From the IMG/VR virus record IMGVR_UViG_3300038304_000019, positions 1 through 20,243 of that record: a DNA stretch of 20,243 nucleotides; one strand, 5' to 3'. A program made the translations under genes and the position numbers. How positions within the stretch are numbered: the stretch's first letter is position 1; each line of letters opens with the position of its first letter. Below the pieces are notes generated by a model. The model saw only the letters and a list, made by a program, of their open reading frames with translations, did not search any database and was not told where the DNA came from. This stretch comes from a virus. Shown one piece after another: positions 538 through 18,200 of this stretch.

Positions 538-930
538 ATGTTTCCTGAATATTATACAGAGTTAAAGTTTATCCATGTATTAGCAGTTATACTGTTTACA
601 TCAAATACCCTTATTACTACGGGGTGGAGATGTAAAGCGTTAGGTAGTTCTGATATTAACACCATCAGATTCTTTGCAGATATGATGGGGAAATCAGATA
701 CCTTATTTTACTCTATAGCTAGTACGATAGTACTTGTTACCGGTTTAGCTAATACTCATGCGTGGGATCAGTTGTGGGTACAGTTAGGTTTAGTTTACTG
801 GATAATTAGTTTTATTGCTTGGGCATTCGTAATGCGCCCAGTGCAGAAGATACAACGTAAAGTACTACGAGGATTAAATAGTGTAGAGGAAATTCCTGAT
901 AACTACTGGAAACTTAATAGGCGTTGGTAG
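538..930 (+). CDS. DUF2269-like integral membrane protein, ended by an in-frame amber codon
   Basis: This encodes 130 residues with three clear membrane helices at about 9-28, 55-75 and 82-102. It has the layout I associate with the DUF2269 predicted membrane family: an early His in the first helix (LKFIHVLAV), a W near the end of that helix, and a C-terminal IPDNYWKLNRRW. In that family this last motif is followed by a fourth helix. Here it is followed at once by TAG (928-930). Beyond it the same frame continues with 24 residues, IAGWIGFIAPVLAVHAM onward, to TGA at 1003-1005, and these read as the missing fourth helix. AAGGGG at 527-532 supports the ATG. The role is unknown, and adjacency to the acyl carrier protein and ketosynthase genes suggests shared expression. 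DUF2269 is assigned from memory of the motif pattern. Confidence 0.75.
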   Translation: MFPEYYTELKFIHVLAVILFTSNTLITTGWRCKALGSSDINTIRFFADMMGKSDTLFYSIASTIVLVTGLANTHAWDQLWVQLGLVYWIISFIAWAFVMRPVQKIQRKVLRGLNSVEEIPDNYWKLNRRW

Positions 931-1005
931 ATTGCTGGATGGATTGGATTTATAGCTCCGGTACTTGCTGTGCATGCAATGGTCACTAAGGGAGGATTAT
1001 TTTGA
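928..1005 (+). other. In-frame continuation past the amber codon (fourth membrane helix)
   Basis: Codon 131 of the DUF2269-like frame is TAG at 928-930. The 24 codons after it are open and encode a hydrophobic helix flanked by Trp and Lys, ending at TGA 1003-1005. That TGA overlaps the TTG start of the acyl carrier protein gene at 1002 (TTGA), the sort of coupled junction seen elsewhere in this operon. The natural family length of about 150-155 residues is reached only if the amber codon is read as sense. This can be a recent nonsense mutation, programmed readthrough, or suppression in the host. Confidence 0.6.
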
Positions 1006-1325
1006 GTACTTGTAATATTACAGAAGATAAATTCATTGAGGTTATTAATGGACTAGCTAAATACGAGGCCGTTGATGTAAGTATGTTCGAGCCAATTACT
1101 TCATTAGATCAGGACATACTATTAACTAATATAGACAGTTTAGGTATTATGATGATGTTTATTTGGTTATCAGCTATTTTTGGTATTGGGGATGAGGAAG
1201 GTAAAGAATTACTAGGTCAAGGGGATGTACTCACTGGGCATGTTATTGTTACCTTTGTCAAAGCATACCAAACAAAAAGTTACACTGATGAAGAAGTTGA
1301 TTTCCATGTAAGGTCTTTACTGTAA
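1002..1325 (+). CDS. Acyl carrier protein-like protein, phage-encoded
   Basis: This encodes 107 residues, starting at TTG with a strong GGAGG at 991-995 and a six-base spacer; no ATG is available in frame. The core is an acyl carrier protein fold. There is a leading helix (about 8-20), a loop with PITSLDQDILL, then NIDSLG, where Ser46 of the DSL motif is the expected attachment site for 4'-phosphopantetheine. A hydrophobic second helix ending in FGI follows, and then DVLTGHVIVTFVKAY, which matches the final 'vgDvv-x-y-v' helix. Such proteins carry growing acyl chains as thioesters after a host AcpS-type transferase loads the arm. The gene is a little longer than the usual 75-90 residues because of a 17-residue C-terminal tail. 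It abuts the ketosynthase gene (TAA at 1323-1325, ATG at 1326). It is unusual in an N4-like structural operon. Confidence 0.82.
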   Translation: MSTCNITEDKFIEVINGLAKYEAVDVSMFEPITSLDQDILLTNIDSLGIMMMFIWLSAIFGIGDEEGKELLGQGDVLTGHVIVTFVKAYQTKSYTDEEVDFHVRSLL

Positions 1326-2357
1326 ATGTATATTACCCACCTCAATTCTATATACTCTAATGAAACTACATTAATAGATTATGTTCCCTACCCTCAACGT
1401 GTACATCAAGTATCAGATGGGGGGATACGGGTAGCTCAGGGAATTAAAATACTTCCTTCTGAATTTGTAGAGTATCTACTAGCAGGCTCTCAGGGGGCTA
1501 CTACAAGGTCTTTAGATATTCTTAGGGGGATTGTAGCAGCTAGGGGGAAGACAGGGCTAATACTGGCTACAGGAGGCTCTGTATGGACAGGATATGGCAC
1601 TACGATACCATTAACTAATAAGTACCCTAAACATCGTATGTTACCATTAGGTATGACTCAGATATATGCTGGGCAGCTAGCAAATAAGTTAGGTGGTGTT
1701 GACTATGTATCTACAGATACTACTTCCTGTATCTCTGCTCATTCTGCCTTGCATCATGCTAAACTATTAATTGATAGTAGTAGGTTAGATAGGGTAATTG
1801 TAGTATCTAGCGACAATGGGGCTAGTGAGGAGTATATGCATTTCTTTGGCGAGCAGGGGCTATGTTTATTAGAATCAGATGGCGTAGATGCTAATAAATT
1901 TAGGTTAGGCCAGGGAGCTAATATCACAGTAGTGGAATCCCCCACATCCTTAAAACAAACTAAAAATACACCATTAGCTAAAGTACATGATATTAATATA
2001 GTATCCGAGACACACAGTAATCCTTTAGGTATTGCTCCTACAGGTATTGGATATAGAAAAGCTATTACTAGTATTTTAACTCCAGCTATGGTATCCTCAA
2101 TTAACTTTGTTAAAACACATTCGACTTACTCAGATGATAATCAAGTGGAATGTGAGGTTGTTAAGGAGCTATTAGGTAATATGCCAACAGTAAACTATAA
2201 AAAGAAGATCGGACATACAATGGGACCTAGTGCAGCTATAGAGATGCACTTAGCTATGGGAGACCGTAAGGGTACCTTTCTGAGTTTAGGTGCTGGTATG
2301 GGTAATGTATTCGCAGCTGCTATTGTGGAGACCCTCGATGCCTTTACCGAAGAATGA
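1326..2357 (+). CDS. Beta-ketoacyl-ACP synthase-like protein (thiolase fold), phage-encoded
   Basis: This encodes 343 residues. The family joins an acyl chain to malonyl-ACP by decarboxylative Claisen condensation. The full triad of the KAS I/II type is visible. Cys135 lies in STDTTSCISAHSAL and is followed by the expected RLDRVIVVSSD strand. His265 lies in KTHSTYSDDNQVE, the counterpart of HGTGT-x-x-ND-x-x-E. His297 lies in KKKIGHTMGPSAAIEM, with Lys292 five residues before it as in FabF. GQGANITVVE matches the usual 'GEGAG-x-x-v-l-E'. The spacing from Cys to the first His (130) and between the His residues (32) is close to that of FabF (140 and 37). The protein is about 70 residues shorter than FabF, and the C-terminal glycine loop is LGAGMGN instead of a clear GFGGTN. 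The second His and the K-GH motif argue against FabH, which has Cys-His-Asn. It follows the acyl carrier protein with no gap, so the two are probably partners. The substrate is unknown. Confidence 0.85.
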   Translation: MYITHLNSIYSNETTLIDYVPYPQRVHQVSDGGIRVAQGIKILPSEFVEYLLAGSQGATTRSLDILRGIVAARGKTGLILATGGSVWTGYGTTIPLTNKYPKHRMLPLGMTQIYAGQLANKLGGVDYVSTDTTSCISAHSALHHAKLLIDSSRLDRVIVVSSDNGASEEYMHFFGEQGLCLLESDGVDANKFRLGQGANITVVESPTSLKQTKNTPLAKVHDINIVSETHSNPLGIAPTGIGYRKAITSILTPAMVSSINFVKTHSTYSDDNQVECEVVKELLGNMPTVNYKKKIGHTMGPSAAIEMHLAMGDRKGTFLSLGAGMGNVFAAAIVETLDAFTEE

Positions 2358-2670
2358 AATATTGTTTGCTTCGGCTTCTGTTATACAGAAAGGGGAGGCT
2401 ATGCTATTCTACCAGTATAGGAAAGATATACCAGGATACCTAATAGCAGCAATTATATGTGCCCCTAATACATACGCTCGTATAGATCTCGTAGGAGTAA
2501 TGAATTACTTTTTTAAAGAAATAGTTAGAGATAGGGAAGCATACTGCTCCTTATTTCTAGATGGCATAACGGATATATTTCCAGGGCAATTGTCGTATAA
2601 ACAAGAGCTAAATGGTTTATCAATATTTAAGATAGACCATTCTAAATTTAAAATACTTATAGGCACATAA
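2338..2670 (+). CDS. Hypothetical protein overlapping the ketosynthase gene
   Basis: This encodes 110 residues from ATG at 2338, which lies 20 bases inside the end of the ketosynthase gene and has GTGGAG at 2325-2330 as a ribosome binding site. An earlier in-frame ATG at 2290 would add 16 residues but lacks such a site and lies deeper in the overlap. The protein has a hydrophobic centre (PGYLIAAIICAPNTYARIDL), then helices containing VMNYFFKEIVRDREAY, and ends in beta-like segments. I do not recognise the family. The overlap implies translation coupled to the ketosynthase, so it may be part of the same acyl pathway. It contains two cysteines and no motif that I would call catalytic. Confidence 0.65.
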   Translation: MPLPKNEILFASASVIQKGEAMLFYQYRKDIPGYLIAAIICAPNTYARIDLVGVMNYFFKEIVRDREAYCSLFLDGITDIFPGQLSYKQELNGLSIFKIDHSKFKILIGT

Positions 2671-2673
2671 AGC

Positions 2674-4848
2674 ATGATTGAAGAGAAAGCAGATATCATA
2701 TCACCAGAATCAGATCAGATAGTAGACTGGGAGAATCCCCCTACTTTAGAAGACCTAAAGCAAGACTTAACAGAGGCTACTTCTTCCCACAGTGCACACG
2801 AAGTAGAAGTAGATACTTGGCTGAATGCCCTTAATGGCAATCAGGTAATCAAAGCTAAGAAGGGTAGATCGAAGATTGTACCTAAACTTATACGTAAACA
2901 AGCCGAATGGAGATACTCTAGTTTAAGTGACCCTTTCCTTAATACAGATGAACTATTCAATACTTACCCTAGAACCTTTGAGGATAAAGCTAATGCCTCA
3001 CAGAATGGGCAAGTACTTAATTACCAATTTAGCTCTAAACTAAATAAGACTAAGTTTATAGATGAGTATGTACGTACTGGCGTAGATGAAGGTACTGTTG
3101 TTATCAAGTTAGGTTGGGAGTATGCGGATGAGACTATAGAGGTGCCAGTACCTGACTTTGAGTTTCAACAAACACCAGATGCAGGGCAGATACATCAACA
3201 GCTACATGGGATGATGCAACAGAGTCCTGAACAGTTCCAGACTGAAGTGCCACCTGAGATGCAGCAAGCACACCAGATGACTATGCAGGGAGGAGTACCT
3301 GTCGTACCGGTACAGGTAGGCTCTCATATGGAAGAGCAGACCAAGATTGTAAGGAACCAACCTACTATTGATGTATGTGACTATCGGAATGTAGTGATAG
3401 ACCCTACCTGTAAAGGGGATCTAGATAGAGCAGAGTTTATTATATATAGCTTTGATACCTCTATGTCTGAACTAGAGAAAGATGGTAGGTATATTAATTT
3501 AGATCATGTAAACCTAGAGTCTGGTAGTGCGTTAGCTCAGGAGGATCATTCTATAGAGGATGACTCTAACTTCACTTTTAAAGATAAACCCCGTAAGAAG
3601 ATAGTAGCCTATGAGTACTGGGGATACTGGGATATCAATGATACAGGTGTTGTAGAACCTATAGTAGCTACTTGGATAGGTGATACTTTAATTAGGATGG
3701 AAGAGAACCCATTCCCAGATAAGAAACTACCATTCGTATTAGTTCAGTATTTACCTAAGCGTAATAGCGTATATGGTGAACCTGATGGTGTATTGATTGA
3801 AGACAATCAGAAGATCGTAGGTGCTGTCACTAGAGGTATGATAGATATTATCGGTAGATCAGCTAATGGTCAGGTAGGCTCTAGGAAGGATGCCTTAGAT
3901 ACCGTTAATGCTAGGAAGTTTAAGAATGGTGAAGACTACACTTTCAATAGTAATGTAGATCCTCGTCAGGCTTTCCATATGGGTACATACCCTGAGATAC
4001 CTAATAGTGCAATGAATATGCTCAGTCTTCAGAATAACGAAGCAGAGAGTCTTACAGGGGTGAAAGCATTTAGTAGTGGTATTAGTGGGGCAGCTCTCGG
4101 AGACACTGCTACGGGCATTAGGAGCGCCTTAGATGCCACTTCTAAGAGAGAGCTTGGTATACTCCGTAGACTAGCTAACGGTATTACTCAGGTAGGTAGA
4201 AAGATTATATCTATGAATGCTGAGTTCTTAGATGACCAAGAGATTATCCGCATTACTAATGATGAGATGGTAGAGATCAATAGAGATGATCTAGGTGGTG
4301 ATTATGATATTAAGTTATCTATATCTACCCCAGAAGAAGATAACCAGAGAGCAGAACAGTTAGCATTCATGTTACAGACTATGGGTAACAGCATGCCTCA
4401 GGATATGTCTCAAATGATTCTAGCTGATATAGCTAAGTTACGGAATATGCCTACTCTCGCACATAAGATTGAGAACTTCCAACCTCAGCCTGATCCTATG
4501 CAGCAGCAGAAGGTACAGCTAGAGATGCAGTTACTACAAGCACAGATAGCTAATGAGACTGCTAAGGCACAAGAGAATCAAGTTGATGTTGGACTTAAAC
4601 AAGCTAAGACTGTCACTGAGGAAGCTAAGGCAAGAGCAATGCACAGTGGAGCTGACCTACAAGACTTGGACTTTGTAAGTAAGGAATCCGGTGTAGATGA
4701 CGTTAACCAAGAAGAGAGAATGAAGCTAGGTCACCAACAAGCTATGGAACAGAAGGAGTTCGATAGAAGGAAGGACTTGGATTCTAAGACATTTGATGCT
4801 ATGCTTAACAAAGAATCAGAGGTACCTCAACAGTACCCAGGTTTATAA
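2674..4848 (+). CDS. Portal protein, N4 gp59-like
   Basis: This encodes 724 residues, close to the length of N4 gp59 (about 760). Portal proteins form the dodecameric ring at one capsid vertex, through which DNA is packaged and ejected. The N-terminal part has the conserved block GRSKIVPKLIRKQAEWRYSS followed by LSDPFLNTDELF (about residues 63-94), then NYQFSSKLNKTKFIDEYVRT and a following EGTVVIKLGWEY. A Gln/Met-rich insertion at roughly 165-215 is atypical. The middle carries YEYWGYWD, PFVLVQYLPKRNSVYGEPDG and the ITRGMID-like stem region. From about residue 600 the protein is a long Gln/Ala/Glu-rich helix, likely coiled-coil. The start ATG lies three bases after the preceding TAA. Its Shine-Dalgarno is poor, so coupling to the upstream gene is likely; CACATAA at 2664-2670 resembles the repeated leader. 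Assignment to portal is firm, to the N4 type by context. Confidence 0.9.
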   Translation: MIEEKADIISPESDQIVDWENPPTLEDLKQDLTEATSSHSAHEVEVDTWLNALNGNQVIKAKKGRSKIVPKLIRKQAEWRYSSLSDPFLNTDELFNTYPRTFEDKANASQNGQVLNYQFSSKLNKTKFIDEYVRTGVDEGTVVIKLGWEYADETIEVPVPDFEFQQTPDAGQIHQQLHGMMQQSPEQFQTEVPPEMQQAHQMTMQGGVPVVPVQVGSHMEEQTKIVRNQPTIDVCDYRNVVIDPTCKGDLDRAEFIIYSFDTSMSELEKDGRYINLDHVNLESGSALAQEDHSIEDDSNFTFKDKPRKKIVAYEYWGYWDINDTGVVEPIVATWIGDTLIRMEENPFPDKKLPFVLVQYLPKRNSVYGEPDGVLIEDNQKIVGAVTRGMIDIIGRSANGQVGSRKDALDTVNARKFKNGEDYTFNSNVDPRQAFHMGTYPEIPNSAMNMLSLQNNEAESLTGVKAFSSGISGAALGDTATGIRSALDATSKRELGILRRLANGITQVGRKIISMNAEFLDDQEIIRITNDEMVEINRDDLGGDYDIKLSISTPEEDNQRAEQLAFMLQTMGNSMPQDMSQMILADIAKLRNMPTLAHKIENFQPQPDPMQQQKVQLEMQLLQAQIANETAKAQENQVDVGLKQAKTVTEEAKARAMHSGADLQDLDFVSKESGVDDVNQEERMKLGHQQAMEQKEFDRRKDLDSKTFDAMLNKESEVPQQYPGL

Positions 4849-8193: not shown

Positions 8194-9828
8194 ATGGCGA
8201 TAACTATAGCAGATCTTACAAGTAACGTAGCTACAGTAGACGGTGTAGTTACTGGTGATGGCGTATTTGATGAACTAATGGAAGCAGTCAATTCACAGCT
8301 AGAAAACCAGTACGCTTTAGGTAGAATAACTGGTGGAGATTTTGCAACTGTTTATTTAGGAGCAATGCAAAGTGCCTTACAATCTTCAGTTAGTTATACA
8401 CTTGATCAAGAAAAAACAAATGCTGATGTAGTATTAATAGGTAAACAAGGTTTAAAAATAGATGCAGATAAATTATTAGTTGATGCTCAAGAATTACTAA
8501 CAGATGCACAAAAATTAAAAGTAGATGCAGATATAGTTTTAAGTGGTAAACAAGGTGCAAAAGTTGATGCTGATAAATTACTAGTAGATGCTAATGAATT
8601 ATTAACTGATGCGCAGAAATTAAAAGTTGATAGTGATGTAGCATTAAATACTAAACAAGGGGCTTTACTTGATGCTCAAGAATTAAAAGTTGATGCAGAT
8701 GTAGTATTAGTAGGTAAACAGGGCTTAAAAGTTGATGCAGATAAATTATTAACTGATAAACAGGTAGTTAAACTAACAGCAGATGTTGCATTAGGTGTTA
8801 AACAAGGTACATTAACTGATAATCAAGCAGCAACAGAACTAAAGAAAGCTCTTGATATTGTTAATACAACTACTAATAGAAGTGCGTCACAAGCTACATC
8901 AGAAAATACAGCAATAAAACAAAGATTATTACTTGTTAATCAAACTGCGACTGAACTTAAACAAGCTTTAGACATAGTTGCTGCTACTTCACTTAAAGAT
9001 AAGCAAGCATTGACTGAAGTCAAACAAGCACTAGATATAGTAGGTGCCACTACACTCAAAGGTAAACAAGGAAGTTTAGTAGATAATCAATCTGCTACTG
9101 AACTTAAAAAAGCTTTAGATTTAATTGGAGCTACTTCACTTAAAGGATCACAGAAAGAATTAGCAGACAAACAAGCATTAACCGAAGTTAAACAGACATT
9201 AGATGTAATAGGTGCTACTGCACTCAAAACTAAACAAGGAAGTTTAATTGATAATCAAGCAGCAACTGAACTTAAAGTAGCATTAACTGAAGTTAAAAAA
9301 GCACTAGATGTAGTTGCTTCTAGTTCACTTAAAGATAAACAAGCATTAACTGAAGTTAAGAAAGCTTTAGATTTGGTTTCTAGTCAAGAAGTTCGTGATG
9401 CACAATCTGGTGCTGATATTACATTGAAAGGTAAACAAGGAGGATTAGTTGATAATCAATCAGCAACTCAAGTTAAACAAGCTTTAGATTTAATTGGTGC
9501 TACTGCACTTAAAAATGCTCAAGAAGAAAAAACAGATGCTGAAAAAGCTTTATTAGGACAGAAAGAAATTACTGAGTATGCACAAACACAAAAAAGTACT
9601 AAAGCTGCTCCTGATGCTGGTAGTATTATGGGTAAACAAGCTACCTTATATGGTGAACAATCTAAAGGGTTTAAATGGAACGCTGACCAGAAGTATTTAG
9701 ATACTCTCCTTAAAGCTTGGCAGATGAATGTTAATACTGCTGGTATCCCTAGTACAGGTGTGGATGCACTAAACGCTACAGGTACACCAAATATCAATAC
9801 AATTATCTCAGACTCTAAACCTACATAA
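8194..9828 (+). CDS. Heptad-repeat structural protein, N4 gp54-position
   Basis: This encodes 544 residues in three parts. Residues 1-75 are a conserved N-terminal module (FDELMEAVNSQLENQYALGR, then GDFATVYLGAMQSALQ). Residues about 76-445 are tandem amphipathic heptads in two families: units such as VDADKLL-VDAQELL-TDAQKLK first, then longer units like TEVKQALDxxGATxLKxKQGxLxDNQxA. The second-family units measure 7, 21 or 28 residues, always whole heptads. Residues 445-544 are a conserved end with GFKWNADQKYLDTLLKAWQM. Similar N- and C-terminal modules flank shorter middles in other N4-like phages, as far as I recall. The repeat region is A-rich, with mostly CAA and AAA codons, unlike neighbours. 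A long helical rod used in the neck or an ejection conduit would fit, but this is inference. Confidence 0.7.
   Translation: MAITIADLTSNVATVDGVVTGDGVFDELMEAVNSQLENQYALGRITGGDFATVYLGAMQSALQSSVSYTLDQEKTNADVVLIGKQGLKIDADKLLVDAQELLTDAQKLKVDADIVLSGKQGAKVDADKLLVDANELLTDAQKLKVDSDVALNTKQGALLDAQELKVDADVVLVGKQGLKVDADKLLTDKQVVKLTADVALGVKQGTLTDNQAATELKKALDIVNTTTNRSASQATSENTAIKQRLLLVNQTATELKQALDIVAATSLKDKQALTEVKQALDIVGATTLKGKQGSLVDNQSATELKKALDLIGATSLKGSQKELADKQALTEVKQTLDVIGATALKTKQGSLIDNQAATELKVALTEVKKALDVVASSSLKDKQALTEVKKALDLVSSQEVRDAQSGADITLKGKQGGLVDNQSATQVKQALDLIGATALKNAQEEKTDAEKALLGQKEITEYAQTQKSTKAAPDAGSIMGKQATLYGEQSKGFKWNADQKYLDTLLKAWQMNVNTAGIPSTGVDALNATGTPNINTIISDSKPT
8418..9540 (+). repeat. Degenerate tandem repeats coding for heptads
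   Basis: Within the structural protein gene, 21-, 84- and 105-base related units encode whole heptads. Phrases such as ACTGAAGTTAAAAAAGC and GATAATCAA-GCAGC recur with synonymous changes. The DNA copies have diverged more than the peptides, which suggests the repeat is old enough to have drifted but is maintained at protein level. The strongest cluster is 8990-9500. Confidence 0.75.
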
Positions 9829-9841
9829 GGGGTAATCTGCT

Positions 9842-12697
9842 ATGGCTTTTGTAGTAGCTTGGGTAGCAGCAGCCACAGTAGTGACGATAATAGTGGCAGT
9901 GGTAGTTATTGTCGCTGTTGTACTAGTTGTCACGGATCTGTTGGGAATGCTGGATGACCAAGTCATTGAGCTATTTGATGTACATAATCAACCTCTGTTC
10001 GCATCCGATACCATCGAACAGAGTAATCAAAATGTAGCTACTGCATTATTTAATGATATACCATTAGCTGATTACCTACTAATACACGCAGCCTACGCTC
10101 CCTCAATCTCCGTAGATTTACGTAAGTTTATTACTTATATAGATGATGATAACTACTTTAGTGGTTTCCCTGAAGTAACCTCCTTTATGAATTACGTAGA
10201 TACAGAGGAAGTGTTAGATGTATTAAATACATTAGAAGGTACCCCCTGTTCTCTACAGTCCTCCAAATTAGGGGGATTGTCTATTACAACTTGGATACGT
10301 TATTGGTTACAAGAGAATAAAGGATATGACTATACCACCAACACCTTAATTGAGCCTACGATTAGTGCTCTACCTCTAGTGGTTCAGTATACTGACTACA
10401 CGTACAATGAGGCGACAGATGACTATAGTGTATCCATATCTTTAACCGGAGAGGCTATCCTACTACCTTACGTAATACCTAGTAAACCTATAGGTAGCCA
10501 TTATACAATTGTATATATAAAAGATAATGATCCAGTAGTAGATAAACTCTTTATCTATAAGACGGGTACAGGTACATACCCAGAATTAGATAATCCTACT
10601 ATTGATGTAGATACAGATGCAGATGCATTACAAGTATTACCTGCGATACCCCTCAGAGTAAATAATGTTAATTATAATACTACCCCCTCTACTCGTACAG
10701 ATCAGATAAATGAATTATGTGGATTCCTTAATTTACAGCCTGATGGTATATTAAGTAGTATCCTAGATAATCATGATGGGGATATTAATGATTTAGATCA
10801 TATCTACCTTAACTTTGGGGTACGGATGTGGGATACTACACAAGCGGGTATGACGTATTTATTTAATGTGTTCCAGAATTTATATAGTGGGGGTATATCA
10901 ACTCAAGGGGATTATGATTCTACCTCTAGTTCGGATGATAAACCCTACAATGCGATAGCTATAATATCAGAGGATTATAGGTATGCATTTAAGTTTAGTT
11001 ATATAAATTATACTCATACCCCCTTAGCTGATATTAACTCTAATCCTAGTAGTATAGAAAATGAGGTATATTATTCTCAACCTAAATTCTTTGAGGGTAC
11101 TACGTTAGTAAAGACTTACTACGCCTCTAGTGGGCAGGCTACGTATAATCTTAAATACGCAGCAAGCAATGCTACAGAGGTTCAGGACTTTTTAGATGGT
11201 AATGGCCACCTAGCTCCTGGGGCTACTGCTAGTGAAGCAGGAGAGTGGTTACAAGTAACAGAGAGGTTTGCTTGGTCAGGTAATGTATATGATAAAGACT
11301 TTGAGCTGGTTACTGGTAGTCAGCTACAACCTTTTAAAATATACAGGGGAATGCCTAACACTTCGTTTGGATCCTACAACGCTGAGAGTTGGGGTTATGC
11401 TTATGGGGAGACAGATACCCCTGACAATATTATTAGTATGACACTCACTACCCAGCACTCAAACAGTGTGTGTGCACTAGACCAGTCTTTCGGTATCCTC
11501 GACAGTAACAGCGGTATATGGGCAGATCACGGATGTAGAGGGACATTCTCACTTAGGTTCAGTCAGCCAGGGTACAATGGAGACCTACAGGAGGTCGATA
11601 CAGCTACTGACGCTACATTTATAGGTCAACATATGACTTACTACCAGATTGTCCCTAACGGGCTTAATGCGTACACTGTACAAGCTCCTACAGGAGTATT
11701 TAATGTACGGGATACAGAGTCTAGTAAGTACAAGATGGTTAACTTCAATCTAGCTAATAGAGATGACCTAATGGTTCCTCTATTCTATTCCCAATTGCAG
11801 GGTATTTCTAAAGAAGATGTAGGCAAGTTATGGTTAACTAGTTCCCGTGTAACTGTGATGGTAGCCCACTACGAGGTTATTGAGGTAGACATCTGGTCGC
11901 TGGTATTGATGATTGTACTGATTATTATAATCGTTTATGTGACTATGGGTACTGGAGCTCCAGGATCTACAAACCCAGGGATTACGTCTGTTCTGAAAGG
12001 ATCAAACGTGCAATTAGCTACAATGACTTCTGCTGAAACCGGTGCGCCTATGTTAGTAAATTCTGCTAATGGAATTGGGGTAACAGGGGACGTATTAGTG
12101 ACTAGTAGTTTAGGGATAACCTATACAACACCATACGCTTTAGGTGTAGCTATAGGACCAACTTCAATTGCATGGGCTCCTACAGCAATTAGTTTTGCTA
12201 CTAATTTGATAATCAATCAGATGATTAATTTAGTCGTACAAGAGATAGCAGAGGAGAGTCCTTTAGTAGGATTTATAGTAGCTGTAGGCTTACACATGAA
12301 TTTTGGTATAGGTAAAGATATATCATTTGATAGTATCGACTTAGTGGATGTATTAAAATTAAGTACTATTACTATTGATTCAGTAGCTACTGTGACTACT
12401 GTAGTGGCAAGAATGGAAGCTGAAGAAGAGGCAATTAGACATGAAAAAGCTATAGCCCTAATTGCTGATACTGATTTATTAGTACAAGAAGAACTAGATA
12501 AAATAGCCGCATTGACAAATGACCGTAATACTGATACATTAGAGATGTTAGATGTAGATATACGGGGGGTCATTACCCCCATATACCCTGAGAAGTTTTA
12601 TGCTAAAGTATATGCTAATAAGCTATATGATAATGTCTTTAATATATCAGGACAAATAGATTATAAATTTAAACAAGATTTTAGTAGAATGACTTAG
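9842..12697 (+). CDS. Large membrane-anchored virion protein, N4 gp53-position
   Basis: This encodes 951 residues. Residues about 3-31 are an uninterrupted Val/Ile/Ala-rich membrane helix. A second strong hydrophobic segment at about 684-702 (IWSLVLMIVLIIIIVYVTMG) is followed by a Gly/Ala-rich, moderately hydrophobic region to about 815 that could form one or two more helices. Between them lies a soluble, Asp/Tyr/Asn-rich, beta-type domain of some 650 residues. Residues 855-900 form a charged helix (EEEAIRHEKAIALI). I do not recognise a catalytic motif. Its size, the two membrane segments and the position between structural genes suggest a virion protein that inserts into the host envelope or forms part of the neck. 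The ribosome binding site AAGGGG precedes the ATG by about ten bases. The stop TAG lies inside the AGGAG site of the next gene. Confidence 0.65.
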   Translation: MAFVVAWVAAATVVTIIVAVVVIVAVVLVVTDLLGMLDDQVIELFDVHNQPLFASDTIEQSNQNVATALFNDIPLADYLLIHAAYAPSISVDLRKFITYIDDDNYFSGFPEVTSFMNYVDTEEVLDVLNTLEGTPCSLQSSKLGGLSITTWIRYWLQENKGYDYTTNTLIEPTISALPLVVQYTDYTYNEATDDYSVSISLTGEAILLPYVIPSKPIGSHYTIVYIKDNDPVVDKLFIYKTGTGTYPELDNPTIDVDTDADALQVLPAIPLRVNNVNYNTTPSTRTDQINELCGFLNLQPDGILSSILDNHDGDINDLDHIYLNFGVRMWDTTQAGMTYLFNVFQNLYSGGISTQGDYDSTSSSDDKPYNAIAIISEDYRYAFKFSYINYTHTPLADINSNPSSIENEVYYSQPKFFEGTTLVKTYYASSGQATYNLKYAASNATEVQDFLDGNGHLAPGATASEAGEWLQVTERFAWSGNVYDKDFELVTGSQLQPFKIYRGMPNTSFGSYNAESWGYAYGETDTPDNIISMTLTTQHSNSVCALDQSFGILDSNSGIWADHGCRGTFSLRFSQPGYNGDLQEVDTATDATFIGQHMTYYQIVPNGLNAYTVQAPTGVFNVRDTESSKYKMVNFNLANRDDLMVPLFYSQLQGISKEDVGKLWLTSSRVTVMVAHYEVIEVDIWSLVLMIVLIIIIVYVTMGTGAPGSTNPGITSVLKGSNVQLATMTSAETGAPMLVNSANGIGVTGDVLVTSSLGITYTTPYALGVAIGPTSIAWAPTAISFATNLIINQMINLVVQEIAEESPLVGFIVAVGLHMNFGIGKDISFDSIDLVDVLKLSTITIDSVATVTTVVARMEAEEEAIRHEKAIALIADTDLLVQEELDKIAALTNDRNTDTLEMLDVDIRGVITPIYPEKFYAKVYANKLYDNVFNISGQIDYKFKQDFSRMT

Positions 12698-12708
12698 GAG
12701 AAATAAAT

Positions 12709-13317
12709 ATGAGTTTAGGTGATAAGAAGAGTACCGCTCAACAAATTAGGGACAAGCGCCTAAAGGCGTTCCAGCAGCTCCAGTCCAGCGACGTAATCCA
12801 ATCCACACGGGACACAGACAATCAAAAGTATGAGACAGCCCTGAATGCAATGTCCGGGTACCAACCAAAAAAGACTAAGCAACCTGTAGTTGCACCAGAA
12901 GTAGTGGAGCCCTCTGCCCAATGGACTCCGGAATACAAAGAATTTTTAACGAATCTTTATACGTTAAATAATAATAACGCAAAAGATTCAGGGTTGTTTG
13001 GGTACTCTAGGAATCAGGTTGGGGCGGCTACTGGATTGTTAGGAGCAGGTGCTAATATCTTTGGTGTATATGACCAATACCGAGCCAATAAAGAAACAGC
13101 TAGACATAACCTCGTTGCAGAAAACCAAGGGTGGCTAAATGCTATTGGGGCAATCCAGCAGGTTGATTATGACATAGCAGCTAATAAACCTATGGCAGTC
13201 GCTATGGGTGGTTGGGCAGATAGTCAAGGTATGCAGGATGTAGCAGCTAATTATGACCAACTATCTAATTATAAATTAGCTGAGCCTATGCAAGCAGCAC
13301 TAACCCGTACAATATAA
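12709..13317 (+). CDS. Internal virion (ejection) protein-like, N4 gp52-position
   Basis: This encodes 202 residues, Gln/Ala-rich. A Gly/Ala-rich hydrophobic helix at about 100-118 (GAATGLLGAGANIFGVYDQY) is followed directly by the charged helix RANKETARHNLVAENQGW. This layout resembles the small internal core proteins of podoviruses (compare T7 gp14), which leave the head at infection and insert in the outer membrane. The resemblance is of composition and layout only. AGGAG at 12696-12700 overlaps the previous TAG and lies eight bases before the ATG. It is followed by a large helical protein and the giant protein, so the three may be an ejected set analogous to T7 gp14-gp15-gp16. Confidence 0.55.
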   Translation: MSLGDKKSTAQQIRDKRLKAFQQLQSSDVIQSTRDTDNQKYETALNAMSGYQPKKTKQPVVAPEVVEPSAQWTPEYKEFLTNLYTLNNNNAKDSGLFGYSRNQVGAATGLLGAGANIFGVYDQYRANKETARHNLVAENQGWLNAIGAIQQVDYDIAANKPMAVAMGGWADSQGMQDVAANYDQLSNYKLAEPMQAALTRTI

Positions 13318-13319
13318 AG

Positions 13320-13329
13320 GAGTATACTC
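13320..13329 (+). promoter_or_regulatory. Palindrome GAGTATACTC between ribosome binding site and start
   Basis: The ten bases immediately before the ATG at 13330 are a perfect palindrome that shares its first bases with the AAGGAG ribosome binding site. It could fold into a very small hairpin or be bound by a dimeric regulator, but a chance occurrence is likely. I record it because it fills the whole spacer. Confidence 0.2.
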
Positions 13330-15213
13330 ATGGCAGTAGCTACAGCATTTAACATAAGTGACGGGCAATTCAAAGCGCAGGAGTATATCGAGCCTACAGC
13401 ACTTGATGTAGGGGATATCTTCGCACCAATAAGTGACGAATTGGCTGCTGGGAGCACACGAGACTACAGAGGTGCTTTAACTGACCATACTGACGAATTA
13501 GCCCGACAGAAGGCAATCAAAAACTACGTAGCCATAGAAGAGGAGCGTTTACTAAACGCACCGGATCGTGAGTTAGCGAGTGTTCAAGCAGCAGATAGTA
13601 TTGCTGCGTACCTTAGTCCGCAGGCTAAGGCTAATAGGGACGAGGCTCAAAAGCAACTTGAGGCGAAGAAAAGCATAGATTTATATCTAACTGGCAATAC
13701 GATATCTAACAGGAAACAGTATCTCCCAGACGAGATAGTTAGGGCTAACGTCGCTGCAGGGCAAACTGAAACAGTTACCCAAAATAAGGCAGACCTAGAT
13801 ACTCAGTTGTTTAACTTAAGCACAGAACCTAGTGCATTAGAGCAAATGACGAAAATGCAGGAAGATATCTTTAGGACCCAACTAATGCAAGGGGGTCAGA
13901 CTGCTGAACAGGGTTATAATGACATACTGATTAAAAAAGCAATAAATGAGTTCACTAGTCCATTGGCTCGCGATCTGGCCCTACGACAGGCGCAGGTAGC
14001 CCAGCAAACTGCTGAGAACAATATAAGGAAATTGGAGAATGAGGCGAAGATAATAGACACACACCTAACCGCAAGCTTACCAATTGCCCTGGACACAGCT
14101 AATAAGGTAGCTGCAGACAAGACAAAGAATGCAAGTACGATAGTGGCTAATGCTGTCACTGCACAGGCTCAGAAGGTTCGGGAGGAACAGCTGCGTTTGT
14201 CACTTGCTGAAACAACTTTAACTATAGAGGAACAGAAGGCTGCCCTCAAGGTAGTCGAGGGTTTGGGTGAGGAGATAGAAATAGATCAAGCAATAAAGGT
14301 AGCCAAGTATGTCGTCAATGAAACCCCCCACCTAACGGGCGTAATGAATGACCTTAATAATACGACTGAAGATAAATTAACTGCTATAACTAACCTGGCA
14401 CAAGGTATTATTAGTCAAGGGGTAACACCAGAGCAAACAGCTACTCAAATTAAACCATATCTGGATACCCTCACAGCGACACATAAATTCGCTACCGATA
14501 GTAAACAAAGTGTGGATACTCTTATACAAGACCTTGTAGGTGAGGGAGGGGCAGTAACCCTCGCTACCTTGAAAGATGTAAGGAAAAGCCTTACAGCCTT
14601 TCACGGGAAGCGCTTCGTATTTACTCCACTTGCTGATGATTACGCTAAGAAGGTAATGGGGGCATCTAATCTACCTACACAGTATAAACAATTAGCAATT
14701 AGCCATAACCAAAGTATTATCGCTGCGCAAGAACAAGTAGACTTAATGAAAGCGGCTAGCAGTGGTGAGTTATTTACTGCACAACAGTTTGCAGATAGTG
14801 TGGGTATCTCTGTTGAGGAGCTAAGAGATACTGTGTTCGGTGAATCTCCGTATACGGACTTTAAATCAGCTATAATTAATATAGCAGATCAGTTATATGG
14901 TACGGATCCTACTGATATTAGAAGAAGGCAGCTGTACTCTCAGGTGAACCAACGGGTAATCTTTAGTATAAGTGGGTCTAATGAAGGTGGTATAGCTGCA
15001 CTTGGTGGGGTCGATACTCTTGAAGATGGGGTGGGAGATGATGCAGCCAACTGGAATAAAGCTGAGGCAACGTCTTGGCTTAAGGCTACTTTCCCTGATG
15101 GCTTTGGTCCGAATAGCAAGTTCAACAAAAAACTTTTAATAGAGGAAATACGGGCTGCCTCAGAAAAGTTAGACCCTAAGAATTGGAAATCCTTCGTATA
15201 CGGTGAGAACTAA
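13330..15213 (+). CDS. Large helical internal virion protein-like, N4 gp51-position
   Basis: This encodes 627 residues, almost all predicted helix, rich in Ala, Gln, Glu and Thr, with no cysteine, signal peptide or strong membrane helix. Long charged helices lie at about 115-300 and 310-400. A short stretch near 460-490 (YKQLAISHNQSIIAAQEQ) continues the pattern. I recognise no enzymatic motif. By size, composition and place directly before the giant frame it parallels N4 gp51, which is found in the virion, and the general class of ejected core proteins such as T7 gp15. AAGGAG at 13317-13322 is the ribosome binding site. The ten bases before the ATG (GAGTATACTC) are a perfect palindrome. The stop TAA overlaps the next ATG (TAATG at 15211-15215). 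Confidence 0.6.
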   Translation: MAVATAFNISDGQFKAQEYIEPTALDVGDIFAPISDELAAGSTRDYRGALTDHTDELARQKAIKNYVAIEEERLLNAPDRELASVQAADSIAAYLSPQAKANRDEAQKQLEAKKSIDLYLTGNTISNRKQYLPDEIVRANVAAGQTETVTQNKADLDTQLFNLSTEPSALEQMTKMQEDIFRTQLMQGGQTAEQGYNDILIKKAINEFTSPLARDLALRQAQVAQQTAENNIRKLENEAKIIDTHLTASLPIALDTANKVAADKTKNASTIVANAVTAQAQKVREEQLRLSLAETTLTIEEQKAALKVVEGLGEEIEIDQAIKVAKYVVNETPHLTGVMNDLNNTTEDKLTAITNLAQGIISQGVTPEQTATQIKPYLDTLTATHKFATDSKQSVDTLIQDLVGEGGAVTLATLKDVRKSLTAFHGKRFVFTPLADDYAKKVMGASNLPTQYKQLAISHNQSIIAAQEQVDLMKAASSGELFTAQQFADSVGISVEELRDTVFGESPYTDFKSAIINIADQLYGTDPTDIRRRQLYSQVNQRVIFSISGSNEGGIAALGGVDTLEDGVGDDAANWNKAEATSWLKATFPDGFGPNSKFNKKLLIEEIRAASEKLDPKNWKSFVYGEN

Positions 15214-18200
15214 TGACAGGACATGTATTAGACTCTGCAATTGACCGAGCCAAAGCAAATGTAGCACCTGCGTTACTAGCGGAAAAAGCTAGTATAATGG
15301 ATAAAGTACTACAACGTAAAGTCAGTGTATTAGCTCCTACCATCCCAGAGATGGTGGCACCAGTACCAGAAGTGACCCCCGAGATCATGTTAGAAGTGAC
15401 CCCTGCGCTCACACCTGAGATTGTGCCAGAGATCACACCTGCGATTGCGTCAGAGAGCGCAGCTGGGATGTTGGAGCCTGAAGGTACACTAGGAGACCCT
15501 GCAGTTGTAGATATGGCTGTATCGCCTCCTGAGGAGCCTAAGGATAGCTTTACACGTATACCCATCCCAGAATACTTACGCCAGCAAGCAGAACCTCCCA
15601 CTAGGAATGACATACCTGTAGATATTCTACCTAAGGAGGACACAACTCCTGTAGATACTAGTTGGTTGAATGCTTTTAAGGGTATTGGGAGTATGGGTGG
15701 GGCTGCTTCAGTAGATACTGTTAAGGCACTTAGGGATATGTATCAGTATGTCGCAGGAGATGATATTAGTGATTTAGCTAAACAGTTTAATTCACATGCC
15801 CCAGCTGAGGATGTAATTACTGAAGCAGACTTACAGATGTTTGTTGGTACTAAAAAATTAAGTTATACCACTCCACCTTCTAATGAACAAATAACCTTTA
15901 TGCAATCTTCCCAGTATAAGAATCTGAATAAGATGGATACTGACTTAGAGATGCTAGACATGGAATGGAAAGAAGCCAGTATAAACACAAAGGCTGAACT
16001 ACATGAACTATCTGGTTGGGATAACAGGGACTTAAATGAATTAGTACAAGGCAGTAATGTTACCTGGCAGAGCGGGAAGGGCTTTACAGATACTTTTGGT
16101 AAGATGGTGGATTATTACATGGATAACTCAGGAGCTAGTCTCCGATCTGCTATTCCATCATTAGTTCATACTATCCTTTACTCTGGGGGTAAGGCGGTAG
16201 AAGCAGCGTTCTCTACAGTACAAGTACATAAGTATTACAATGAATTTGTAGATGCTAATGAGAAACTGTATGCAGACTTTACTACTGAAGAAAAAGCAGA
16301 GGCTTTTGTATATGCATTAGGAGCTGTAGGGACTGAATGGTTTGGTGAAAAAATATTAGGTAATGTTGGTAAAAAATTAGGTAAAGCAATACCTGGTAAA
16401 TTTAAGAACATGGATTTTGAGATTCCTTCGTTAACCAAAGCAGGACAAGTAGCTGTTAATGCAACTGGGGTAGTATTTGCTTCTGGTGCCTCTGAGGCCT
16501 CTACAGAAACATTTCTACAACTTGGCACAAATGTACGTGACCCAAATTTCAAAGAAGGGGATGTCGCTACAGCATTTGCATTAGGATTAGTTGGTACACC
16601 TACGGTAGTTAGTACAGTAGCAGCAGGGGATACAGCTATCAATACTGTTATAGATAGTACACAATCTACAAATACACAGGTTACTACAGAGCTAGATAGA
16701 TTAACCCAGATTCAGACTGATAATCTGGCGAGTATAGCTAAAGGGGAATCAGATCTAGATATTGATGTAATCCCACATTCTGAGAAAGATACATCTATTA
16801 GTGCAGCGGCACAGACAGTACAAGCTTCAATTGCTGAAGTAGAAGCTAATTTAGCTCAAGCGACGCGTAATCTCAATACAGAGAAAGTGGATGCAAACGA
16901 TCCTGAAGCAATAGCTGAAGCACAAAAGAATATTGACACGTTCACCACTAGACTGAAATTACTAAAAGAACGCCAACAGGGCATAGTCAAATCCTTAGCG
17001 ATAGCCAAGCGAGCACAACTCGCTGTTGGGACAGTAGAAGCTGAAATTGTTAAGAAGCAAGCTCAAATAGACAAGCTAGATACGAAGGTACCTGCTAATG
17101 AAAAAGAGACAGTTAAACTAATCAATCGCAAAGCTAAGATACAGGGGGAGATTGACCAATTAAAACAAAACAAGACGAAGGCAGAGGAGTTAGCTAATGT
17201 TGATTACACAGGCTTAACAGATGCTGATAAAACTACCACTACTACTAAACTCACTGAATCTGTTAAGTCAACAGTCAGGGAGCATCGGGAGGATAGGGCA
17301 CAAGAGCGTGCAGACAAGCAAACTGAAAATGCAGTACGTACCGACCAGGTTAAAGAAGAACTAGACACTGTAAATGAAGAAAGAGAAGTACTGCGTAAGG
17401 AGATCCTAGCAGAGAAAGACCCTACTAAAAAACAGGCACTGAAAGATGACTTATCAATCAAGTATGCCGAGAAACAAACTCTGCTACAAGAGCAGCAGAA
17501 GTTAGCAAAGGAGAAGGATACATACCAACAAAGTTTTGTTAAGAGAAGTGTAGCTAAAACTAAGAATGTAGTATCTAAGGTGGTAGACACAGTTGCCGCT
17601 ACTGCTAAGGGTACAACTAAATTTATCAAAGAACAGTCTAATACCAATAGGGTTATCAAATCTATCGTAGAGGATTTCCAAACCTACGCTGAGGACTTTA
17701 CAGGGATATCTATAGTAATAGATACAGAAGAGAAAGATAACGACAATAAGAATACTCCAATAGATCTAAGTGCAGGCACTACCTCACCAGAACGTGTAAT
17801 GGAGTATATCGTGACTGCAGCGGGGCAGGTTACTACGAAAGTAGAAGATGAATTAGCTAAAATAGAGGAAGGCAGTTCTGAGAAGACGTTATCAGTTGCT
17901 GAATTGAATGAGGCTTTAACTAAAGCCCAAGAAGCATTGCTGCGTGTCACTCGTGCAGAGAATCAACTACCAGCAACTAATCTTGATTCTGGGCGAGTCA
18001 AACAAGATGTGAATACCAGAATAAATAAAGCAGCTAAAAAAATAGATAAATTAGCTAAAGCACAAGGAATACCTGCTACTGCAAAAAAACAAAACAAGAA
18101 ATTAATGAAGTTAATAGAGGCTGTTGAGAAGGCACAAACAGATGAAGAAGTCAGTACAACCCTCGCAGCATTTACTAGTATAGTTGAGTCCACACCGGGA

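Follow-up and report, generated by a model that had tools for sequence, protein, structure and literature searches.

An acyl carrier protein, a FabF-like ketosynthase and a GNAT-like protein encoded before the portal gene of an N4-like phage fragment: a possible acyl-transfer cassette

The window, i.e., the whole stretch of DNA analysed here, is a 20,243-base virus fragment from IMG/VR, in which several small genes precede a portal gene (Table 1). By its portal and capsid genes and their order, the window can be assigned to an N4-like structural gene block, in agreement with the context originally proposed for it. The portal protein is 49-55% identical to the N4-like portals among the best 60 of 577 matching records, including those of the Schitoviridae phages Pollock and DL64; the portal family phrog_1216 and the major head protein family phrog_1357 are both matched, and the order portal, small gene, gp57-like gene and capsid is that of Pollock and DL64. 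A giant virion RNA polymerase is a defining trait of N4-like phages (Schitoviridae); the open reading frame starting at 15213 and running past the window end (1677 aa) gave no PHROG match at 1e-5.

Table 1. Genes preceding and including the portal gene in the window
Feature	Position	Strand	Length and principal matches
DUF2269 membrane protein gene	538..930	+	130 aa; PF10027 4e-12
ACP (acyl carrier protein)	1002..1325	+	107 aa; phrog_28189 9.8e-34; AlphaFold pLDDT 89.0
KS (ketosynthase, KAS I/II type)	1326..2357	+	343 aa; FabF 8.4e-22 (PDB); phrog_35856 1.1e-160
orf109 (GNAT-like fold)	2338..2670	+	110 aa; phrog_28689 6.5e-22; predicted model
Portal protein	2674..4848	+	PF23899 5.4e-147; phrog_1216 portal 5.3e-246

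The original prediction concerned the acyl carrier protein (ACP) and the ketosynthase (KS), whose coordinates proved correct. As read from the sequence, the ACP frame opens with a TTG at 1002, preceded by GGGAGG, and closes with a TAA at 1323-1325, which the ATG of the KS at 1326 abuts directly in the same frame (TAA-ATG junction, 1323-1328). The KS ends with a TGA at 2355-2357 and is overlapped over its last 20 bases by orf109, which extends from an ATG at 2338 to a TAA ending at 2670. The two genes had been placed directly upstream of the portal gene and in tight coupling with it; the tight coupling stands but orf109 intervenes, and the account of a two-gene unit was incomplete, the unit taking in orf109. 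The portal gene is the anchor gene of the same block and lies outside this cassette, for which late expression is suggested by position only. On the upstream side, the DUF2269 gene stops at an in-frame TAG but its homology runs on to a TGA at 1003-1005, and 161-aa homologues in four relatives (L007, L008, L009 and L015) overlap the ACP start; this gene is an optional part, accompanying the cassette only in the closest relatives of the window.

The identification of the second gene as a ketosynthase is borne out by profile comparisons. Among NCBIfam models, those of ketosynthases rank first (fabF, 4.7e-11), and solved FabF structures in the PDB are matched at 1.2e-06 with the single sequence and at 8.4e-22 with a profile of 8, although the score against the FabF equivalog TIGR03150 (42 bits) falls far below its cut-off of 493.75. 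With Pfam, the window KS reaches 20.1 bits for PF00109 and 15.9 bits for PF02801 against a cut-off of 20.8, and among its relatives 27/59 match PF00109 and 12/59 match PF02801 at E 0.001. The KSs of L103 (PF02801 3e-17, PF00109 7.8e-12) and L113 exceed both Pfam cut-offs, that of L084 exceeds PF02801 only, and those of L083 and L089 exceed neither. As such, the phage KS is, on its family matches, a distant relative of KAS II, FabF being the nearest. The residues singled out at the outset, namely Cys135, His265, Lys292 and His297, align with their FabF counterparts, this alignment taking the place of the structural superposition proposed for the pair, and are invariant: among 70 non-identical sequences, Cys135 is kept in 66/66 of those with a letter at the column, and His265, Lys292 and His297 each in 69/69, as are Asn272 and Glu275. 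The catalytic residues remain invariant even in KSs down to 29% identity to that of the window.

Like FabF, the phage KS thus has a Cys-His-His triad with a Lys five residues before the second His, and it keeps the conserved Glu after the first His and the C-terminal G-x-G-x-x-N loop. It differs in its length (343 aa in the window versus 406-431 aa in the FabF-type chains matched), in a short N-terminal part, in the lack, within the N4-like group, of about 30 residues ahead of loop 1, in a Met for the loop Gly, and in forming a separate group in the tree. It differs above all in an Ala replacing the FabF gate Phe400: when 15 phage and 7 bacterial KSs are aligned, Phe400 of FabF (SFGFGGTN) corresponds to Ala323 of the phage protein (SLGAGMGN), and Ala323 is kept in 69/69 phage KSs with a letter at the column. 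According to the available portion of PMC7138838, Phe400 is the FabF gate, and the F400A variant of Streptococcus pneumoniae FabF forms triacetic acid lactone efficiently. Judged by this alignment, the phage KSs are naturally gate-less, in the Phe400 sense, which may alter the product of the KS.

The case for the ACP is weaker than that for the KS. Alone, the window protein gave no Pfam or NCBIfam family match, so that the profile searches proposed to verify the pair placed the KS near the ketosynthase families but left the ACP on its own without a family; against the PDB, its single sequence found a FlaK peptidase best (0.034), followed by an ACP at 0.32. A first small ACP profile reached only E 0.051 in the PDB, whereas a profile built from 57 relatives matched mostly carrier proteins (best E 0.0019), with 10 of the 60 PDB matches listed being colicin E9 immunity proteins, aligned over the first part only. 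Only one of the first 7 relatives matched PF00550 (0.15), against 4 matching Phage_XkdX (best 0.002); of the full 57, a number that counts the window itself, 13 reach PF00550 with E-values no higher than 0.1 (best 0.001), alongside scattered weak matches to other families, e.g., Phage_XkdX. The best of them, the ACP of L084 (E 0.001), scores 19.7 bits against the PF00550 cut-off of 20.8.

The AlphaFold model of the ACP (pLDDT 89.0) is a helical bundle in which Ser46 opens helix II (46-60). In Foldseek, ACPs are ranked first with weak E-values (0.27 and up), and in VIA the matches are titled as carrier proteins or complexes holding one, the best of them (Z 7.5, rmsd 2.5, 78 aligned) lying at a level, Z below 8-13, that may be generic to helical proteins. 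Asp45 and Ser46 are kept in 65/65 relatives with a letter there and position 47 is L or M in 66/66, in accordance with the D-S-L serine originally pointed out; phosphopantetheine is predicted to attach at Ser46 of D45-S46-L47. The protein thus resembles AcpP-type ACPs in its helical bundle and in a D-S-[LM] motif at the start of helix II, but differs in its 107 aa with an extra C-terminal helix (96-106) and in that its relatives are sub-threshold to PF00550 and PF14573 where they match at all. Chance occurrence of the ACP and KS motifs is ruled out by the residue conservation counts.

The third gene product, orf109, is a probable acyl-transfer enzyme of GNAT-like fold, as suggested by its predicted structure (pLDDT 83.6, element order b-b-b-a-b-a-b-b). 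Acyl- and acetyltransferases come first in the Foldseek search of the PDB, with weak E-values (0.049 and up); the viral library gave a best E of 0.0025 and mostly uncharacterised phage proteins with some acetyltransferases; and 33 of the 50 titles listed by VIA name acetyl- or acyltransferases, many of the others (GCN5, PCAF, AtaT) being GNATs under other names. The best VIA match (Z 7.7, rmsd 3.9, 96 aligned) is too low to establish a fold on its own, and sequence searches of the PDB with orf109 gave no match. The usual pyrophosphate-binding motif of GNATs is R/Q-x-x-G-x-G/A; by eye, this motif is absent from the strand-helix junction of orf109, where the consensus of 55 sequences is A-P-N-x-x-A-K.

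A search of IMG/VR with the KS matched 361 stretches, 324 of which were confirmed and 80 kept, many of the latter showing the KS in the same position as in the window. Several KS loci are overlapping stretches of one contig and are therefore not independent genomes. In the loci examined, every KS is directly preceded by an ACP, except at contig edges, i.e., where the contig starts inside the KS or at most 36 bases from it (L016, L033, L079, L082 and L085-L088). Three settings can be discriminated: (i) an N4-like setting with the order ACP-KS-orf109-portal; (ii) a second phage type with no adjoining orf109 or N4 portal (L002, L090, L091, L102, L103, L105, L107-L113 and L119), where the upstream genes are annotated as tail and 'phage stabilization' in L002 and match virion structural PHROGs in L113; and (iii) L083/L084, where an upstream open reading frame of L084 matches tail-fibre PHROGs. 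In L083/L084, the gene after the KS carries an EExRH..DE[SI]RH pattern; in L083 it gives sub-threshold matches to rubrerythrin (8e-4) and FA_desaturase_2 (0.0084), and no PDB match at E 1. This desaturase-like gene hints, through its sequence pattern, at acyl chemistry. A profile comparison gave no link between orf109 and the third gene of the second phage type. By eye, the strand/helix order of the latter appears similar to that of orf109, a likeness that is unproven.

How often the cassette accompanies the portal was assessed on the 80 loci nearest to the window portal, which is not a census; 29 of these with less than 1,750 bases upstream were dropped, and the remaining 51 were scored with profiles at E 1e-3, on the same strand and within 3,000 bases of the portal. 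Of these loci, 26 hold ACP, KS and GNAT-like genes, 2 ACP and KS, 5 ACP and GNAT, 8 GNAT only and 10 none (24, 1, 4, 8 and 7, respectively, once identical portals are merged to 44), and a KS without an ACP occurs in none of the 51. The ACP is present in 31/39 loci with the GNAT-like gene versus 2/12 without it (Fisher 1.5e-4, a value that ignores phylogeny), and the stop of the GNAT-like gene lies -10 to +26 bases from the portal start in 39/39 loci. The cassette is therefore frequent, but not universal, among the relatives of the window. A second scan, likewise not a census and numbered with new ids, took the 79 loci nearest to a Litunavirus portal, 5 of which (L280, L281, L296, L298 and L303) lie on contigs already present in the first scan; 21 had too little upstream sequence, and 57 of the other 58 hold none of the three genes, the remaining one holding the GNAT-like gene (L296, on the contig of L177). 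No cassette protein was found in the stretches examined of the cultured phages Pollock and DL64, where lysis genes or a dUTPase gene precede the portal on the opposite strand.

The search for the pair beside the portal was thus productive: the order ACP-KS-orf109-portal recurs in uncultured N4-like contigs. The statement, made with a reservation, that no N4-like phage is known to carry the pair holds for the annotated phage collection as searched but not for the many uncultured N4-like contigs of IMG/VR. Queried with both proteins, the annotated collection, which may omit records near the window even though relatives were in the PHROG dataset (PHROG families exist), yielded one record with both KS and ACP, i.e., MW202545, an uncultured genome whose annotation includes P22-type tail genes. 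With the KSs of L113 and L084 as queries, 20 and 12 other records, respectively, are matched along part of their length at 23-30% identity (best 8e-17); these mostly unannotated matches look like bacterial FabF. A close-relative scan with the L084 KS returned its own contig only.

A 100/100 branch in a tree of 60 rows sets the 26 phage KSs, along with one row labelled bacterial (L129), apart from the rest; in position, L129 coincides with the phage-like contig L119, within a Balneolaceae MAG. Because of this row, the phage and bacterial labels strictly need two changes, not one. A single origin of the phage KSs is likely, in a tree that carries a long-branch warning, and by their sequences they group well apart from bacterial FabF. 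A bacterial home was also looked for. The only two matches in bacterial genome contigs were contigs with phage-type genes binned in MAGs, and a profile (A6, E 1e-60) matched one of 398 genomes from the phylum, in a location that coincides with the L118 contig, which holds ACP, KS, orf109 and portal. Among 19 phage records, most of them fragments, neither a phosphopantetheinyl transferase (PPTase, PF01648) nor an acyltransferase (AT, PF00698) was found (0/19 each), and the PF00106 reductase family gave a single match (3.8e-4), under the cut-off and in a 52-aa frame with a stop; this search for fatty-acid-synthase partners covered the PPTase, AT and reductase, as opposed to the dehydratase or enoyl reductase. 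With these partners lacking from the 19 records, the host would have to prime and feed the phage ACP. The description of ACP and KS as the minimal pair for chain building therefore fits only in part, given the Ala in place of the gate Phe and the lack of PPTase, AT and above-cut-off reductase in those mostly fragmentary records.

Taken together, the sequence families, invariant residues, gene order, nested co-occurrence and predicted folds lead us to favour, tentatively and with slightly less than an even chance of being right, the view that ACP, KS and orf109 form one host-primed acyl-loading and acyl-transfer cassette co-expressed with the virion genes. In such a cassette, a host PPTase would transfer phosphopantetheine onto Ser46 of the phage ACP; the KS, with Cys135 as nucleophile and His265, His297 and Lys292, would draw an acyl or malonyl unit from the fatty-acid synthesis of the host and, being devoid of the FabF reaction-order gate, might load the phage ACP with an acyl chain that is short or beta-keto; orf109 would then take the acyl group directly from the ACP and pass it to an amine. 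The acceptor would most likely be something made late, possibly a virion protein, since orf109 abuts the portal gene and phages of other types have ACP-KS next to virion genes. From the nested co-occurrence, in which phylogeny is ignored, the ACP would seem to serve orf109 and the KS to serve the ACP, and it is this pattern, together with the existence of carrier-using GNATs, that favours host priming, chain formation by the KS and transfer by a GNAT. According to the accessible part of PMC6331615, SbzI, SbzC and FeeM are GNATs that take their acyl group from a carrier protein. The phage system resembles FeeM and SbzI/SbzC in pairing a carrier protein with a GNAT-fold acyltransferase, but differs in that orf109, with 110 aa, is a GNAT core only and gave no homology in a sequence search. 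Against the cassette, the GNAT assignment is that of a model unsupported by sequence, its Z staying below 8 and its Foldseek E-values at or above 0.049 (PDB) and 0.0025 (viral library); in the second phage type, the third gene has no profile link to orf109; the window ACP is under the curated cut-offs; and the three genes are separable, since the GNAT-like gene occurs without the ACP in 8/51 loci and ACP with KS occurs without it in 2/51.

The boldest reading, based on position only and doubtful, would have a virion protein, i.e., the portal or a neighbour, acylated during assembly by the ACP, the gate-less KS and a miniature ACP-dependent GNAT. If true, marine N4-like phage particles would undergo a lipidation or beta-ketoacylation step, which would add a new step to the assembly or entry of tailed phages; if no virion protein is acylated, there would still be a compact ACP-KS-acyltransferase system amenable to testing. 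Either way, an ACP is tied to a gate-less phage KS and a portal-abutting GNAT-like gene in many uncultured marine phages.

Several other explanations have to be weighed. ACP and KS could join or drain host type II fatty-acid synthesis and so alter the membrane lipid supply before lysis, with orf109 an unrelated neighbour of the portal. This would accord with a KS nearest to the elongating FabF, with reports elsewhere (R22Y, Rhodobacteraceae prophages, freshwater pelagimyophages) that assign ACP and fabF genes of phages to fatty-acid or lipid metabolism and with the interpretation of phage ACPs as fatty-acid helpers in the accessible portions of the literature; it is nonetheless rather unlikely, given the Ala replacing the FabF gate, the lack of an above-cut-off FabG-type reductase and of an AT in the 19 mostly fragmentary records, the position next to virion genes in all three settings examined, and the distance of the phage KSs from bacterial FabF. 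The triacetic acid lactone formed by the Phe400Ala FabF of S. pneumoniae (PMC7138838, available portion), along with the N-acyl amino acids made by ACP-dependent enzymes in literature available in part, lends some credit to a gate-less KS making short polyketide-like or beta-ketoacyl chains that orf109, or elsewhere the desaturase-like protein, would turn into a diffusible N-acyl product or signal. This second possibility we consider distinctly unlikely: no AT was found in the same records, mostly fragments, and there would be little time for a product to act, since it would be made beside the portal and so probably late.

It is also improbable that ACP and KS alone are a functional pair, for loading and decarboxylation or condensation, beside which orf109 is a general GNAT-like protein of the portal region. 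The abutment of orf109 on the portal gene in 39/39 loci, its occurrence without the ACP in 8/51 and the absence of a profile match between it and the third gene in the other phage type are what this explanation would predict, but the ACP accompanies orf109 without the KS in 5/51 loci, and the ACP is found in 31/39 loci with orf109 against 2/12 without (phylogeny being ignored). That the proteins are non-catalytic virion or scaffold parts keeping their folds only would suit a position inside the structural block, but is very improbable, the catalytic residues and the phosphopantetheine Ser being invariant.

A literature search covering mostly papers outside subscription gave no description of an ACP-KS-GNAT unit at a phage portal. 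A phage-borne ACP or KS is nevertheless of an already known kind, as illustrated by Alteromonas schitovirus R22Y (ACP, gp30), an Erythrobacter phage (ACP) and Rhodobacteraceae prophages (acpP-fabF-fabG, an order compared with bacterial fab operons), all three as reported in the accessible parts of the respective sources; the papers available in part include PMC11705849, PMC5463345, PMC8224337, PMC10653327, PMC8762209 and PMC12783922. The Rhodobacteraceae prophages likewise combine an ACP gene with a KS gene within one phage region, but include fabG, and the accessible part of the report mentions no portal position. Freshwater pelagimyophages carry fabF and a stearoyl-CoA desaturase gene according to the accessible part of PMC7029224, i.e., KS and desaturase genes in one phage as in L083/L084, a comparison by description only; our guess would be that L083/L084 are such pelagimyophages. 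In R22Y, a profile located an ACP at 23774-24070 (E 1.5e-4), presumably the gp30 of the paper, with the portal at 11822-13768. As in the window, this ACP belongs to a Schitoviridae phage and lies among structural-type genes, but it is about 10 kb from the portal, and a search covering 50,000 of 68,251 bases gave no relative of the KS or of orf109. The gene following the R22Y ACP appears by eye, as an unproven likeness, to have a strand/helix order similar to that of orf109.

Upstream of the ACP gene, the gene encoding a DUF2269 membrane protein is interrupted by an in-frame TAG, past which the frame is still open and homologous as far as a TGA. In the relatives L007-L009 and L015, the DUF2269 reading continues past the position of this TAG; locus L003, identical in sequence to the window across the gene, has the same short ORF. 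The TAG may correspond to a nonsense change, or be subject to read-through or recoding.

Regarding the gene company of the ACP-KS pair, the relative L164 exhibits diverged ACP and KS genes, with some 370 bases between them, ahead of an N4-like portal gene and without the GNAT gene, a pattern also found in L167. In L083 and L084, a third setting of the pair, the gene immediately 3′ of ACP-KS is ferritin-like and desaturase-like, and its product is a possible alternative partner in acyl chemistry. In Alteromonas phage R22Y (L115), a gene overlaps the end of the ACP gene; its product has no Pfam match and, judged by eye, its apparent strand-helix order recalls a GNAT core. The cassette, or its ACP-KS part, is further carried by two MAG contigs of phage-like appearance, namely L118 and L119, for which binning suggests Hyphomicrobiales and Balneolaceae as hosts.

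Farther along the window, one ORF is composed, as judged by eye, of short imperfect repeats. A long ORF, still open where the window ends, has no PHROG match at 1e-5; a gene arrangement like that of N4 would place the giant virion RNA polymerase in roughly this region.

Coordinates of the features considered
Feature	Location	Product	Remark
DUF2269 gene	window 538-1005		TAG 928-930; TGA 1003-1005
Repeat-built ORF	window 8194-9828	544 aa	phrog_2050 virion structural protein match
Long ORF	window 15213-20243	1677 aa	open to window end
Desaturase-like gene	L083:6455-7243
Desaturase-like gene	L084:6984-7691
Diverged ACP and KS	L164:1626-3396
R22Y gene beside ACP	L115:24051-24554	167 aa
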